This document shows, in pieces, positions 21,753-37,205 of a stretch of 40,896 nt of DNA (its first letter is position 1; each line of letters starts with the position of its first letter). The notes beneath the pieces were generated by a model. The model was not told the origin of the DNA. It searched no databases and was given only the letters and a program-made list of their open reading frames with translations. The position numbers and the translations under genes are program-made. Source of the stretch: Chitinophagaceae bacterium (GTDB taxonomy: Bacteria; Bacteroidota; Bacteroidia; Chitinophagales; Chitinophagaceae); assembly GCA_947447825.1 (NCBI GenBank), contig CANFLL010000033.1, positions 1 to 40,896 on the forward strand, read 5' to 3'.

Positions 21753-22250
21753 TTTACTTTTTTACATCTTTTGAAGACATTCTAATTTGAATGTAGTGCT
21801 TGCACTTAAAGTGGCTAAACTGAAAGGGTTTACTACCAAACGGATGCGTTTAGTAGTAAACCCTTTCAGTTTAGCGATCAAACGGATACGTTTAGTGGTA
21901 AAACCTTTCAGTTTAGCGATCAAACGGATACGTTTAGTAGCTAAACCTTTCAGTTTAGCAATCAAACGGATGCGTTTAGTGGTAAAACCTTTCAGTTTAG
22001 CAATCAAACGGATACGTTTAGTGGCGAAACCTTTCTGTGTATAGAAATGATAAGTAAACCCGTTTATTGAATAAAGGGGGTGAAAATGAGTCTAACCCGT
22101 TTAATTAAGATGAAAAATAACCGTAGAGTTGACAGTATTAATAACATAAAGTGCAAAATGAAGAGATTCATTCCTCTTGTTTTGTAAATGACTACGTTTT
22201 TTCCCCATCTAATAGTCATAAAAGAAGCAAATAAAAAAGGAAAGACAAAC
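21753..22250. other. Gap between convergent DUF5723 and dsbD genes
   Basis: Holds the 42-bp repeat array (21814-22044) and about 200 bp of AT-rich DNA to its right with no gene. Both strands of the array are open (81 and 85 codons), but neither frame has a credible start or composition, so no gene is called. Confidence 0.6.
21814..22044. repeat. Tandem array of 42-bp units with a 29-bp-stem hairpin at its left end
   Basis: Five direct repeats of 42 bp begin at 21838, 21880, 21922, 21964 and 22006 (the last is 39 bp). Each unit holds AAACGGAT(A/G)CGTTT, a small dyad, and CCTTTCAGTTTAGC. At the left end, 21814-21842 and 21847-21875 are inverted copies differing at one position, separated by GATG, so a 29-bp stem can form. 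Unit differences are confined to a few positions, many of them third codon positions of the rightward frame (KR-RLVV-PFSLAI). The array lies in a 500-bp gap between convergent genes. Confidence 0.92.
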
Positions 22251-28294: not shown

Positions 28295-29230
28295 TTAAAG
28301 TGGGATAAGACGTTCTTTTAAGTTATTCTTCACTTTTTGAGGGATAGATACCAAAATCGCTGTTTTTAATGCCTCTACTAAACGCTTTTTAACAAAATCG
28401 CGATGAGTTATCATACTCACCTCTCTAACAGGGCGGGGTGCGGTGAAGTGACGAACACTTTTTTGTTGTTCTTCATCCAAATCAAAGGTTGCTAATTCAG
28501 GTAATATTGTTACCCCATCATTAATCTCCACCATTCTGCGAAGTGTTTCAAGGCTTCCTGCTTCATATTCAAAATGACTACCTTCTTTTGTCTGCCTTCT
28601 AAGTTCGCACAGATTTACAATTTGACTCCTAAAACAATGCCCTTCCTCCAATAGCCATAGTTTTTCTGGATCAATATCTGCGGGCAACACGTACAATTTC
28701 TGATAAGCAGCATTTTTCTTGCTTATGTAAGCCACCATTTCTTCATAGAAAAGAATATCTTCTTTTATTCCTTTTTCATTTAATGGTGTAATAAGCAAAC
28801 CCACATCTATACGTCCTTCTCGCAAACGAGCAAGCAGAATGTCAGTGGTAAACTCATTTATCACAAGTTTTACCATTGGGTTCTTTTTGGCAAAAGATTG
28901 AATAAATAAAGGCAACAAATATGGGGCAAGGGTAGGGATTACCCCAATGCGCAATTCGCCCGTGAGTACATTCTTCTTTGAATCCACCATTTCTTTAAAC
29001 ACAGCGCACTCTGCAATAATCTTCTTTGCTTGTTCAATTAATTGAACGCCAGGTTCTGTAGGTAGAACAGGCTGCTTTGTTCTGTCGAATATCTTGACGC
29101 CTAGTTCTTCCTCTAGTTTTTGTATCTGCGCACTAAGCGAAGGTTGTGCTACAAAGCAATGCTCGGCAGCCTTGGCAAAGTGTCGATATGTATCTACTGC
29201 GATGATATATTCCATTTGAACAATCGTCAT
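28295..29230 (-). CDS. oxyR: Hydrogen-peroxide-sensing LysR-type regulator OxyR
   Basis: 311 residues. The N-terminal winged helix (MTIVQMEYIIAVDTYRHFAKAAEHCFVAQPSLSAQIQKLE) is the LysR helix-turn-helix in its OxyR form. The effector domain has LEEGHCFRSQIVNLC: Cys199 and Cys208, the same numbers and spacing as the peroxide-sensing pair of E. coli OxyR, which form an intramolecular disulphide on oxidation and switch on antioxidant genes. There is no catalase or peroxidase gene in the window for it to control, so its targets are elsewhere. The gap upstream (29231-29330) should hold its promoter, possibly self-regulated. Confidence 0.9.
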   Translation of the reverse strand: MTIVQMEYIIAVDTYRHFAKAAEHCFVAQPSLSAQIQKLEEELGVKIFDRTKQPVLPTEPGVQLIEQAKKIIAECAVFKEMVDSKKNVLTGELRIGVIPTLAPYLLPLFIQSFAKKNPMVKLVINEFTTDILLARLREGRIDVGLLITPLNEKGIKEDILFYEEMVAYISKKNAAYQKLYVLPADIDPEKLWLLEEGHCFRSQIVNLCELRRQTKEGSHFEYEAGSLETLRRMVEINDGVTILPELATFDLDEEQQKSVRHFTAPRPVREVSMITHRDFVKKRLVEALKTAILVSIPQKVKNNLKERLIPL

Positions 29231-30338
29231 AAATTTCTAAAATTATAATTTTCAAAGTAAATGTATTGATTAAGATAAACCATACTATAACAGAAATATA
29301 AAACAGTAAAACTTAATTCTACTTTCGCGAATTAGAGGTTAAGCATTCGTTTTATGTTAGAAACTTTATTACAACAGGTAAACCCACGTATTGTAAGAAT
29401 AAAATATTGAGGTTGGTTACACTTGTGAAAATTGATTTGACCGAAAGGAATGATTAATTCCATTGATTTCAAATGAATGAAGCTTCTCTCATTTCGCAAA
29501 ATAAATTCTGTTGAGTATAATCTACAAACTCCTTTAAACCCTTTACTGTCAATGAATACATCATTTACTTTAGCAATTTTAGCATCAAAAAACGTCATTT
29601 CCTCACCTGAGTGAGTCCACGACTCAGGTGAATCCTTGGCTGACTCAGGTGAGTCGTCAACTCACTCAAGTGAGTCCTTGGCTGACTCAGGTGAGTCGTC
29701 GAGTCACTCAGGTGAATCGTGGACTGACTCAGGTGAATCTCTGGCTGACTCAAGTGAATATAAGCGTGATTCAGTTGAATAAATGGAAAAAAGAGGACAA
29801 AAGAATGTGCTCAATTTGATATTCTGCGTGTTTGGGATAAGCTTCTAGAATGTTTAGAACTATCTGATAAGTGGAACGTGGGCATAAACACTTATCGCTT
29901 TTCCTCATGAAATTAGCGGTAGAACTCCTGTTGGATAACGATTAATTTAATCTGTGAAAGTAGAATTAAGGATAAAGAATCAATAAGCATTTAATTGGAT
30001 AAAAAAATCCAACGAATCCATCCATAAATACACTTACATAAGTTTAATCTTAAATTTCAAGTATGAATAAAAGTATGGTTATTATAACGTCAAAAAGAAG
30101 TTCACGAGTCAAGTTGCTAAAATTTATTTAACTACCCAAAGGAATCTCGTAAACCTAAATTGATCAAATTGAAGCTTAATTCTCTTTCTTTTTGACTTAT
30201 TACTTTAAACTTACAAAGCCTTGTATTCCCTAGATTTAAGGGGTATTTTGGGTGTGAAAATAGAATCACTTTTGTATTGCGAGAGTAAAATAAAACTCTT
30301 TCATTAAAAAAGATTTATCACAAATAAAATATACAATT
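29231..30338. other. 1.1-kb gap with a repeat array and no confident gene
   Basis: Contains the 21-bp dyad array (29600-29784). An 88-codon frame at 29332-29598 on the minus strand has no recognisable features. Immediately right of the array an unstarted plus-strand frame (29779-29910) reads like protein (AQFDILRVWDKLLECLELSD), and a 22-codon frame begins at 30063 (MNKSMVIITSKRSSRVK). Both look like gene debris rather than working genes. Confidence 0.4.
29600..29784. repeat. 21-bp dyad-symmetric tandem array (iteron-like)
   Basis: Eight copies at exactly 21-bp intervals begin at 29621, 29642, 29663, 29684, 29705, 29726, 29747 and 29768. The core is GACTCAGGTGAGTC, itself a palindrome (GACTCA-GG-TGAGTC); later copies decay to GACTCAAGTGAATA and GATTCAGTTGAATA. 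At the left end the reverse-orientation core CACCTGAGT (29604-29612) pairs with ACTCAGGTG (29622-29630). A 21-bp step is two helical turns, so all dyads face the same side of the DNA. One frame reads as repeated LTQVS, but without a credible start. Confidence 0.92.
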
Positions 30339-30602
30339 ATGCTTATTAATCTTAAAATGAATGTGATTGCAATTGCTATTACTGGGATGATTATGACGGC
30401 AACAATTACTGCCCCCTTAACAAAAATATTTGGCAGGAATTACAACAATGCCAAAGACTTTTCTTGTTGTAAAGGAGACGATTTAGTACTTCATCATTAT
30501 TACACATTTAATGTTTTGTGGGTTGAAGTTACTGATGGTTACACTGAAGAAATTACTGGCAAATCGGAACACGGAGGTTGCGTTATTAGATGCAAAGAGT
30601 AA
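30339..30602 (+). CDS. Small cysteine-containing hypothetical protein
   Basis: 87 residues. The N-terminal half is hydrophobic (MNVIAIAITGMIMTATITAP, a signal peptide or anchor). The C-terminal part reads KDFSCCKGDDLVLHHYYTFN-VLWVEVTDGYTEEITGKSEHGGCVIRCKE: a CC pair, a paired His-His and a late CxxxC. Similar small proteins with the CCKGD-LVLHHYY core occur in Bacteroidota, in my recollection, with no function assigned. Two ATGs (M1 and M7) are possible starts. A strong hairpin terminator begins 27 bp after the stop, which supports an independent transcript. Real gene likely; role unknown. Confidence 0.6.
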   Translation: MLINLKMNVIAIAITGMIMTATITAPLTKIFGRNYNNAKDFSCCKGDDLVLHHYYTFNVLWVEVTDGYTEEITGKSEHGGCVIRCKE

Positions 30603-32152: not shown

Positions 32153-33496
32153 TTATTGGTATTGAGCGTGCAATTCTACTCTCCTATTCATGCTTCTACC
32201 CGTTGGAGTTTTGTTGCTTGCAATTGGTTTTTCTTTTCCATATCCAATTGAATATAACCTAGCAGCAGCGATTCCTTTGCCAATGAAATAATTCTTAATT
32301 GCATCTGCTCTTTTTTGGGATAGTTTCTGATTAACAATAGCATTTCCTATGTTATCTGTATGCCCCTCAATTTCTAATCTAAAATCAGGATACTTCTGCA
32401 TAATTCCAACAACTTGATCAAGTGTAGCAATTGCACCCTTAGCTACTACTGTACTTTTAACATTGAAGAAAATATTTTTAGCTAATTCATTCATTTTAGA
32501 TTGAACATCCGGGCATCCCTTATTAGCAGCAATACCTGCTTCATCTGGACATTTATCCTCTTCATCATTTATTCCATCACCATCTTTATCAGGAATCGGA
32601 CATCCATGATACTTGATAATACCCGGAATAGTAGGGCAAGAATCTTCTTCATCATTAATACCATCTTTATCAGTATCAGGAATTGGGCATCCATGATACT
32701 TTGCAATTCCCGGCATTAAAGGACAAGAATCTAATTCATCATTTATTCCATCACCATCTGTATCAGGAATTGGGCAACCATTATATTTTACAAATCCTAC
32801 TACATAAGGACATTTATCTACACTGTCTGGAATACCATCATTATCAGAATCTAAAGCAACTATTGGCTTAACAACTGTTGGCTTCTTCGACGATTTGCTG
32901 TGTAGAGGGAAAGACATTCCAATGGAATAATTCAAGTTTTCCTTGGTTTCAAATTTGGTTCCTGTTTTCAAAGTTTGATGTAACAATACCTGAACATATA
33001 AAAACTGACTATTATCTAACTTAAATTGCAATCCACCACCCATAGGAATATATGGCATTACATAAGCTCCATTATACAAGGATGTTCCTAAACCTAAAGA
33101 TATGTATGGTACAACTGGTTTATCATCAGTTAATATTTTATAGGTTGCCAAAGCATTTATTTCAGCCATAAACTCCTCAACACCTTTATATACATTGGCA
33201 GAATCATGGTATATGAAAATTCCATTGGAATTCTTACATTTTGTATTGCAAATACTCAACATAGAAGTAAAGTCAAAATTAGGAGAAAGCCCCACTGTAA
33301 AAAAGCCATTTACACCTGGTGCTAATTCACCATTCCACCCCTTTTTATTTAGTTTAAAAGTACTAAGACATGATGGATAGTCTTTTACAAAAATCGACGC
33401 ACCAAACGAAGCAGGCTTTTTTAAACTTGAAGTAGTTTGAGCAGAAGAAACTACCACTAAAAACAACGCTAAATAAGTTAAAATAAATTTATTCAT
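32153..33496 (-). CDS. OmpA family outer-membrane protein with thrombospondin type-3 repeats
   Basis: 447 residues. Signal peptide (MNKFILTYLALFLVVVSSAQ), N-terminal beta-barrel region (about 25-205), then four Asp-rich calcium-binding thrombospondin type-3 repeats (DSDNDGIPDSVDKCP, DTDGDGINDELDSCP, DTDKDGINDEEDSCP, DKDGDGINDEEDKCP) with paired cysteines, and a C-terminal OmpA peptidoglycan-binding domain (FFNVKSTVV ... LEIEGHTDNIG ... LSQKRADAIKNYF ... GRSMNRRVEL). The architecture links the outer membrane to the cell wall through a rigid calcium-dependent spacer, a standard Bacteroidota design. The repeat units are near-identical at DNA level (KYHGCPIPD in two copies), so copy number may vary. 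Confidence 0.92.
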   Translation of the reverse strand: MNKFILTYLALFLVVVSSAQTTSSLKKPASFGASIFVKDYPSCLSTFKLNKKGWNGELAPGVNGFFTVGLSPNFDFTSMLSICNTKCKNSNGIFIYHDSANVYKGVEEFMAEINALATYKILTDDKPVVPYISLGLGTSLYNGAYVMPYIPMGGGLQFKLDNSQFLYVQVLLHQTLKTGTKFETKENLNYSIGMSFPLHSKSSKKPTVVKPIVALDSDNDGIPDSVDKCPYVVGFVKYNGCPIPDTDGDGINDELDSCPLMPGIAKYHGCPIPDTDKDGINDEEDSCPTIPGIIKYHGCPIPDKDGDGINDEEDKCPDEAGIAANKGCPDVQSKMNELAKNIFFNVKSTVVAKGAIATLDQVVGIMQKYPDFRLEIEGHTDNIGNAIVNQKLSQKRADAIKNYFIGKGIAAARLYSIGYGKEKPIASNKTPTGRSMNRRVELHAQYQ

Positions 33497-36669: not shown

Positions 36670-37205
36670 TTAGTGGTTAGTTATTAGTGGTTAGTGGTTA
36701 GTGGTTAGTTATTAGTGGTTAGTGTTCAAGTCTTTTTACTGTAACATGCCTTGTTATTTGTATTGAGGAAATACGCATTGTGGGAAAATGTTCTGGGTTT
36801 AGGCTCTATATTTTGGAATTATAGTAGCAAATGGAAACAATTATACACAGATTTCGGAAATCCAGATACAGTCGGATACAATTCTGTCCAGATTCTGGAA
36901 ATCTAACCACAAATGGAAACAATTATACCCAGATTTCGGAATTCTAGTAGCAATCGGATACAATTATGTCCAGATTCTGGAAATCTAACCACAAATGGAA
37001 GGAATTATACCCAGATTTCGGAAATCTAGAAACAATCGGATACAATTCTGTCTAAAAAGTCGCCATCTGGGCATAATTGTATCCGATTATACCCAAACGG
37101 CGACTTTCTAAGCAGAATCAAGTTCGATTATTGTCAGACGGCGCATATTTCCCTTTCAACTCACCACTAACCCCTCATCACTCACCACTAATAACTAACC
37201 ACTAA
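36670..37205. repeat. Bracketed repeat element: 27-bp inverted arms around a 41-bp array
   Basis: The arm 36670-36696 (TTAGTGGTTAGTTATTAGTG followed by GTTAGTG) and the arm 37179-37205 are inverted copies matching at 26 of 27 positions. Further copies of the 9-bp word GTGGTTAGT extend the left arm to about 36724. Between the arms lies the 41-bp array and a long hairpin (37056-37107). The whole 536-bp block fills the gap between bioA and the T9SS cargo gene and holds no ORF. Its form, with terminal inverted repeats and no gene, resembles a miniature non-autonomous element, but no target-site duplication is evident. Confidence 0.75.
36828..37092. repeat. 41-bp tandem array with alternating A and B units
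   Basis: Units start at 36828, 36869, 36910, 36951, 36992 and 37033 (41-bp steps; the sixth is partial). Units 1, 3 and 5 are type A (CAAATGGAA(A/G)(C/G)AATTATAC) and units 2, 4, 6 are type B (CAGTCGGATACAATTCTGTC and variants). Each contains a dyad: AGATTTC-G-GAAATCT in A, CCAGATTCTGG in B. A further copy lies inverted at about 37069-37092 inside the hairpin with arms AAAGTCGCC (37056-37064) and GGCGACTTT (37099-37107). The alternation makes the true period 82 bp. Confidence 0.9.

Follow-up and report, generated by a model that had tools for sequence, protein, structure and literature searches.

Multimeric operators and iteron arrays consist of dyads or repeats placed at two helical turns and bound cooperatively by protein. 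The described systems closest to the element reported here are BrickBuilt and PgRS/464 of Porphyromonas gingivalis, which are MITEs with central minisatellites. BrickBuilt was described in 19 copies, several of them truncated, which are always intergenic, contain no transposase, and have a limited host range (PMC4596501). Its 23-bp unit comprises conserved and non-conserved sites, its terminal inverted repeat (TIR) is IS5-like (GAGACC...), and its target duplications were given as varying in length (CT, GAAA, and AAAAA); promoter activity was reported for segments of the element, and its repeats were discussed as stem-loops (PMC4596501). MITE464/PgRS was described as having internal 41-nt tandem repeats and flanks that are themselves repetitive, with no homology to the 23-nt repeats (PMC4596501). 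In Streptococcus pneumoniae, BOX elements were described as affecting neighbouring genes (PMC3049150). Transposed satellite families were described as rare, with Leptospira interrogans and Methanocella conradii named, and the string "Bacteroid" was not found in the main text of that survey (PMC6749651).

Here, we analysed an array of short dyads in the window, which is the whole 40,896-nucleotide stretch from a Chitinophagaceae bacterium (assembly GCA_947447825.1, contig CANFLL010000033.1, positions 1 to 40,896). The array forms the middle of a repeated element with its own ends (Table 1). Among open PMC papers, none was found on these arrays in Chitinophagaceae.

Dyad array in the window

Nine TCANNTGA dyads in one 21-bp phase (29603-29778) were read from the sequence. 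TRF assigned a period of 21 over 29621-29759 (6.6 copies, 77% matches), with 42 and 63 as alternative periods. The initial annotation had described this region as eight copies of GACTCAGGTGAGTC. The dyad and the exact 21-bp step held, but the count was loose: with up to two mismatches, GACTCAGGTGAGTC gave eight matches over both strands (six forward sites, two of which also matched in reverse) versus 0.08 expected from 100 dinucleotide shuffles, and only two array sites carried it exactly. The constant part of the array is TCANNTGA rather than GACTCAGGTGAGTC. The reversed, CC-centred core at the left and the decay at the right end, which had also been described, are both present in the sequence.

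The annotation had placed the array in a gap with no confident gene, and indeed no gene with a Pfam match was found in 29230-30339. The ORF in the left part of the element, which lies inside the gap, and an 87-aa ORF at its right edge (30339-30602) had no Pfam match at E 0.01; the former is probably not a gene. The genes next to this copy in the window encode a LysR-type regulator and triosephosphate isomerase.

Table 1. Coordinates of the element, its parts, and the dyads of its array (positions in the window)
Feature	Position	Strand	Basis
Repeated element (MITE-like), 649 bp here	29317..29965	+	17-copy alignment, ends, target duplications
Target-site duplication TTAA, left copy	29313..29316	.	
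Target-site duplication TTAA, right copy	29966..29969	.	
Left terminal inverted repeat, family consensus TTCTACTTTGACA...	29317..29334	+	inverted-repeat search
Right terminal inverted repeat	29948..29965	-	inverted-repeat search
Left unique part (leader-like)	29335..29599	.	common to element copies
88-aa ORF in left part	29332..29598	-	no Pfam match; 17-copy consensus has internal stop
Array, TCANNTGA dyads in single 21-bp phase	29600..29784	.	
Dyad 1, TCACCTGA, CC centre, reversed	29603..29610	.	sequence
Dyad 2, TCAGGTGA	29624..29631	.	sequence
Dyad 3, TCAGGTGA, exact 14-mer	29645..29652	.	sequence and core search
Dyad 4, TCAAGTGA	29666..29673	.	sequence
Dyad 5, TCAGGTGA, exact 14-mer	29687..29694	.	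sequence and core search
Dyad 6, TCAGGTGA	29708..29715	.	sequence
Dyad 7, TCAGGTGA	29729..29736	.	sequence
Dyad 8, TCAAGTGA	29750..29757	.	sequence
Dyad 9, TCAGTTGA, outer arms decayed into TGAATAAATGG	29771..29778	.	sequence
Right unique part (tail-like)	29785..29947	.	common to copies; also alone as truncated right ends

The repeated element and its copies

The own genome comprises 4.65 Mb in 187 contigs. When up to two mismatches were allowed, the core was found across the whole genome at 182 sites on the forward and 184 on the reverse strand, versus 2 and 3 for the reversed pattern. A search with the array gave 94 matches, which were grouped into at least 40 array places. The element census identified at least 52 places, of which at least 40 have the array; 25 of the 52 have the left part, the array, and the right part, and 27 are without one or two of these, often at contig ends. 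These counts are lower bounds, as 40 of the 52, 83, and 73 candidates were scored in the searches with the array, the left part, and the right part, respectively.

The sequence common to the copies extends past the array on both sides and ends at identical points in full copies. Seventeen full copies, taken from L009-L038 with two ends readable by eye, were aligned (the full copies L039, L045, and L047 lie outside the alignment), and their mean pairwise identity was 85% (range 75-94%). The element is short and bounded by TIRs (TTCTACTTTGACA...TGTCAAAGTAGAA), with a distance of 573-720 bp between the TIR ends in the 18 copies with two readable ends; in the window, the inverted repeat 29312-29334/29948-29970 is 87% complementary. 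Of the 19 rows in which both ends were readable (one of them, L048, being a misparse), 14 showed an exactly matching 4-bp target duplication, whereas re-paired ends gave a mean of 6.5 matches and never 14 in 20000 trials. Duplications other than TTAA (TTAG in three rows, GTAA in one, and CTAA in one) account for five of the ten rows that are not TTAA/TTAA.

The many copies contain no transposase; the longest ORF in the window copy is that of 88 aa. PF01609 (DDE_Tnp_1) and PF13340 (DUF4096) were the two transposase families sought in the 187-contig genome: three PF01609 loci were found, none with both element ends, and no PF13340 gene was found. The genome TIR search likewise gave no end pair linkable to a transposase. 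As no transposase was linked to the element, we refer to it as MITE-like. No insertion-free site was demonstrable among the relatives, in which the DNA upstream of the LysR gene did not align. The Bacteroidetes-type promoter motif TAnnTTTG is absent from the element consensus.

Some copies are fragments. In L056 (1561-1908), a right-truncated fragment is interrupted by a different small dispersed repeat. L049, L050, and L051 hold the right end only and start within two bases of one another (consensus positions 554, 556, and 554), which perhaps marks a preferred break or a shorter sub-element.

Constraint on the dyads and on their phase

In the 17 aligned copies, the TCA and TGA positions of the TCA-NN-TGA dyads had a mean per-site diversity of 0.020 (60 sites). 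Diversity elsewhere was 0.269 in the NN centre, 0.151 in the outer arm, 0.187 in the spacer, 0.142 in the left part, 0.171 in the right part, and 0.131 in the TIRs. The TCA/TGA positions were thus 7-9 times less diverse than the flanks, while the TIRs were hardly more conserved than the flanks. In comparisons with five classes (spacer, left part, right part, NN, and outer arm; the TIRs were outside the comparison), the difference was reached in 0 of 20000 permutations each time. The diversities and the change counts cover the columns with at least 12 letters, and one TCANNTGA in the left part of the consensus was excluded from the spacer class.

The changes were divided into those shared by at least two copies and singletons. 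At TCA/TGA, there were no shared changes and 10 singletons in 954 cells, versus 482 shared changes and 234 singletons in 7917 cells of the flanks; private changes were reduced about threefold (odds ratio 0.35), and inherited ones were absent. All eight indels in the arrays (3160 bases) were multiples of 21, giving array lengths of 134, 155, 176, 197, and 218, versus none of the 22 indels in the flanks (8574 bases). The dyads are conserved beyond the background and at constant helical phase, as in operator arrays. The constraint on TCA/TGA and the indels in multiples of 21 are what phased sites for a dimeric protein would show, and the claim of the initial annotation that helically phased dyads serve cooperative protein binding gained support of this kind from the alignment: the dyads are spared and the step does not slip. 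As private changes are reduced and not absent, single insertions may be constrained only weakly.

Arrays with the same dyad in related genomes

A search with the element DNA in 99 genomes of the genus, family, and order (with up to five candidates scored in each) gave matches in six, all in the genus; these were the own genome and five others, which matched weakly over the array or over a piece of about 100 bp of the left part. Arrays in the genus relatives G001, G002, G003, G004, G006, and G010 repeat this dyad in exact 21-bp steps, but their spacers and their surroundings differ from those of the element. The fuller consensus AYTCANNTGART fits most of them, whereas the array L190 of G004 reads CCTCA instead. 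In G004, a piece of about 100 bp related to the left part of the element occurs alone. Downstream of position 1591 in L063 of the same genome, an array with a step of about 22 bp and, by eye, an unrelated unit (GAGAGTAGACGTTTGTGCCAAA) adjoins the piece of about 100 bp related to the left part. An array-bearing 1.7-kb stretch is 98% identical between L066 of G010 and L074 of G001, while the LysR locus is 77% identical between them; the stretch may reflect transfer or mixed bins, and the G010 array may lack independence. The named relatives are MAGs of uncultured Chitinophagaceae, and their freshwater origin is our reading of the isolate names.

Of 394 family genomes, 12 contained a triple-dyad pattern, namely 7 of the 10 sampled from the genus and 5 others. 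The reversed control pattern was found in 10 of the 394, namely the own genome (15 places versus its dyad count of 236), G004 (1 place), and 8 that belong to other genera. Beyond the genus, therefore, the dyad pattern is not in excess of the control (5 versus 8 genomes). The places with the triple-dyad pattern in G011 are other repeats that contain it by chance. A two-core pattern gave no places among the 84,980 species of a GTDB collection that possibly lacks the own genome, and none in IMG/VR. The element DNA had no blastn match in 72,556 plasmid (PLSDB) and 50,697 phage (INPHARED) records.

The wider class of exact 21-bp arrays

TRF was run on 840,896 bp of the own genome (minimal period, at least three copies). 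The sample consisted of 41 stretches, namely the window and 40 20-kb tiles of 11 contigs holding element copies or pieces. Thirty-five arrays had a period of 21. The second commonest class was that of 7 bp (22 arrays), and the other periods were 14, 41, and 42 (6 arrays each), 62-64 (4), and 22, 12, and 85 (2 each), with single arrays at 3, 8, 18, 24, 108, and 153; between 15 and 40, the only periods besides 21 were thus 18 (1), 22 (2), and 24 (1). Of the 35 arrays, nine belong to the element family, a share inflated by the choice of tiles; the 26 others, which this choice did not select, have unrelated units, and some of these are mutually related. Some of the other 21-bp families share the array and not its flanks, so that not all of them spread in the same way.

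With the gene context taken from ORFs of at least 100 aa and not from gene prediction, 31 of the 35 arrays were outside ORFs, and four were in short ORFs of 100-144 aa; in the element family, eight were outside and one was in an ORF of 100 aa. The genes around the 30 arrays that could be classified were in tandem, divergent, and convergent orientation in 18, 8, and 4 cases, respectively. This follows the same pattern as all gaps of at least 100 bp (217, 79, and 45).

By a matrix-based symmetry test, 20 of the 35 arrays were symmetric at p ≤ 0.05, comprising all nine of the element family and 11 of the 26 others (1 or 2 expected); by a consensus permutation test, 12 of the 35 were symmetric at the same threshold. 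The impression gained by eye that nearly every 21-bp array has a palindromic core was rejected on both counts, and 15 of the 26 unrelated arrays have no significant dyad. Dyads are enriched among 21-bp arrays and are not general.

In genus members, densities were taken from unselected stretches, the others having mostly been chosen for holding dyad arrays. There were four 21-bp arrays in 140 kb of G004, three in 100 kb of G007, four in 38 kb of G011, and one in 80 kb of G012. No 21-bp array was found in 200 kb of each of two other family genomes, and 112 kb of named loci around one gene held none, with one of 22 bp. These counts show that something in the genus favours 21-bp steps.

Regarding the array of the element, the initial annotation had held that arrays with unrelated cores at the same step would favour a mutational origin by slippage. 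Such arrays are abundant (26 of 35) and suggest that the own genome prefers 21 bp generally, for mutational or structural reasons, but this preference alone leaves the dyad conservation in the element family unexplained. The most surprising lead to emerge is the wider class of 21-bp arrays between the genes of this genus of uncultured freshwater Chitinophagaceae, and the sharp 21-bp preference across unrelated arrays can be tested with existing sequences.

Other repeats in the window

A second array (21837-22035) with a period of 21/42 bp and AAAC-N6-GTTT dyads lies between converging ORFs, and its matrix symmetry was reached in 0 of 400 permutations. A relative at about 16.9 kb of G000:C1 (L140) has the array in common and not the flanks. 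A third intergenic array (36833-37052) has a period of 41/82 and palindromic cores around AGATTTCGGAAATCT; it had 13 matches on nine contigs of the own genome, itself included, and is flanked on both sides by heptamer-based repeats (36670-36724 and 37159-37203). An 87-bp tandem repeat (32555-32793) lies within a 447-aa ORF (32153-33496) with D-x-D-rich repeats, the end of which we presume to be OmpA-like.

Interpretation and alternative explanations

We consider it somewhat probable (roughly 60%) that the array acts as the functional core of a MITE-like element, non-autonomous and bounded by TIRs, and that its dyads are bound cooperatively by a putative dimeric protein. A dimeric, sequence-specific DNA-binding protein of the host genus would recognise each dyad, neighbouring dimers would be aligned on one face of the helix and bind cooperatively, and a nucleoprotein filament could form over about 170-200 bp. 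The element would then be a carrier that places a ready-made operator or nucleoprotein site between genes, and the site might act for the element, in transposition control or silencing, or for the host, in regulation or chromosome organisation. The sites have hardly changed compared with the drifting remainder of the element, suggesting that a protein binds them in a row. Other species of the genus have this dyad and step where the remainder of the element was not found, so that the putative protein is more probably one of the host lineage than one of the element.

Several observations stand against this interpretation, among them the private changes at TCA/TGA and the possible non-independence of the G010 array. 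The sample is full of exact 21-bp arrays with unrelated units, more than half of them without a significant dyad, so a preference for 21 bp lies outside the binding model. Pure binding sites do not predict that the order of the units would affect folding, as it does in some of the tests described below. The TIRs are hardly more conserved than the flanks, which blurs the level of selection. Finally, the dyad pattern outside the genus is no commoner than its reversed control.

A less probable alternative is that the array is a cis site of the element itself, binding the transposase or its regulator, and that copies with broken arrays fail to spread. Shared changes avoid TCA/TGA entirely while private ones occur there, as would be expected if the constraint acted mainly on the spreading lineage. 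However, the TIRs, which a transposase requires, lack comparable conservation (0.131), resembling arrays occur in other species where the remainder of the element was not found, and the PF01609 and PF13340 searches gave no transposase with these TIRs.

It is rather unlikely that the array is a passive minisatellite that arose through slippage or unequal exchange, with 21-bp units favoured by the genome, and that is carried along in the MITE without function. The abundance of exact 21-bp arrays with unrelated units in the own genome, their presence in the unselected stretches of all four of the other genus members sampled, and the difference in unit number among the copies in whole 21-bp steps would all fit such an origin. 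Nevertheless, slippage or homogenisation would not spare TCA and TGA and yet leave the central NN the most variable, and the diverged arrays of other species retain the dyad and lose the spacer. The passive reading is already weakened by these results.

Also improbable, and more clearly so, is that the dyads matter through the folding of a transcript or a single strand into a hairpin array. The predicted folding was far better than that of dinucleotide shuffles on both strands (z of -7.8 and -6.3). When the order of the units was permuted (17 related copies, two strands, 60 permutations each), the real order folded better at p ≤ 0.05 in 13 of 34 tests, with a mean z of -0.75, but outside the aligned copies the order mattered in 1 of 18 tests (nine arrays); arrays with fewer than five units (L069 and L059) gave no result. 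In units near the left end of the L029 array, two one-sided dyad changes are mutually complementary across a spacer-centred hairpin, as folding would have it, although these paired changes are perhaps the product of templated (quasi-palindrome) mutation. Against a stem, the outer arms that it needs vary like the flanks (0.151), and all 10 altered dyads are one-sided, without compensation inside the dyad. In six arrays of other species, C-A and T-G mismatches occur within the same array, so neither strand keeps G-U pairs. An Rfam search of the array region gave no match.

An iteron or centromere-like site for replication or partition, which the initial annotation had named among its examples, is very unlikely. 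The repeat size and phasing resemble those of iterons, but such sites are present once or a few times in a replicon, beside rep or par genes, whereas at least 40 dispersed array places of a TIR-bounded element with target duplications were counted in one genome. The neighbours of the window copy include no rep or par gene, and the plasmid and phage records gave no match. Coding of a heptapeptide repeat (21 bp being seven codons) was rejected: the + strand of the consensus has an open D-S-x-E-S frame, but its TCA and xxT codons are fixed at the wobble position and its middle codon (NN) varies freely at the first two positions, which is the opposite of coding, and the window copy has a stop in this frame (TCA CCT GAG TGA, 29603-29614).

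Returning to cooperative binding, a broader and speculative extension, which we regard as doubtful, is that phased 21-bp arrays form a large and diverse class with which the genus structures its intergenic DNA, many of them built on unrelated dyads and each family having its own dimeric protein. Cooperative binding platforms would be multiplied across the chromosome as the arrays are copied into intergenic places, with a TIR-bounded element as the vehicle in at least one family. For the element itself, the copy alignment separates a constrained part (TCA, TGA, and the 21-bp phase) from a free part, and a protein-binding role is thereby directly testable. If this is correct, we would have here a clear example, in a bacterium, of multimeric operator sites spread by a transposon-like element.

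Comparison with described systems

The element resembles the transposed satellite families in that non-coding tandem repeats have spread through a prokaryotic chromosome (PMC6749651). BOX elements, as described, are likewise modular, with two end modules, a variable number of boxB units between them, a TIR, and a target duplication; they differ in belonging to another phylum, and the parts of that description used here contain nothing on a 21-bp phase or short dyads (PMC3049150). Like the unit length described for MITE464/PgRS, 41 bp is also a period class in the own genome (6 arrays). Unlike in multimeric operators and iteron arrays, the sites here are dispersed at dozens of places in a mobile element, and their binding protein is putative.

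BrickBuilt is the closest in organisation. It too is an element of the Bacteroidetes, described with a leader, a central tandem minisatellite with a variable number of units, a tail, short TIRs, and many copies (PMC4596501). The same order of leader, tandem units, and tail was found here, and the position is mostly intergenic, with eight of the nine sampled arrays outside ORFs of at least 100 aa. The sequences differ: the unit is 21 bp rather than 23 bp, and the TIR is TTCTACTTTGACA rather than GAGACC... (PMC4596501). In the parts of the BrickBuilt description considered here, no exact two-turn phase is claimed and no dyad-specific constraint is reported (PMC4596501). As its TIR, unit length, and target duplication are unlike those of BrickBuilt, the element is an analogue and not a homologous member of that family, and the constraint on its phased dyads is its new aspect.
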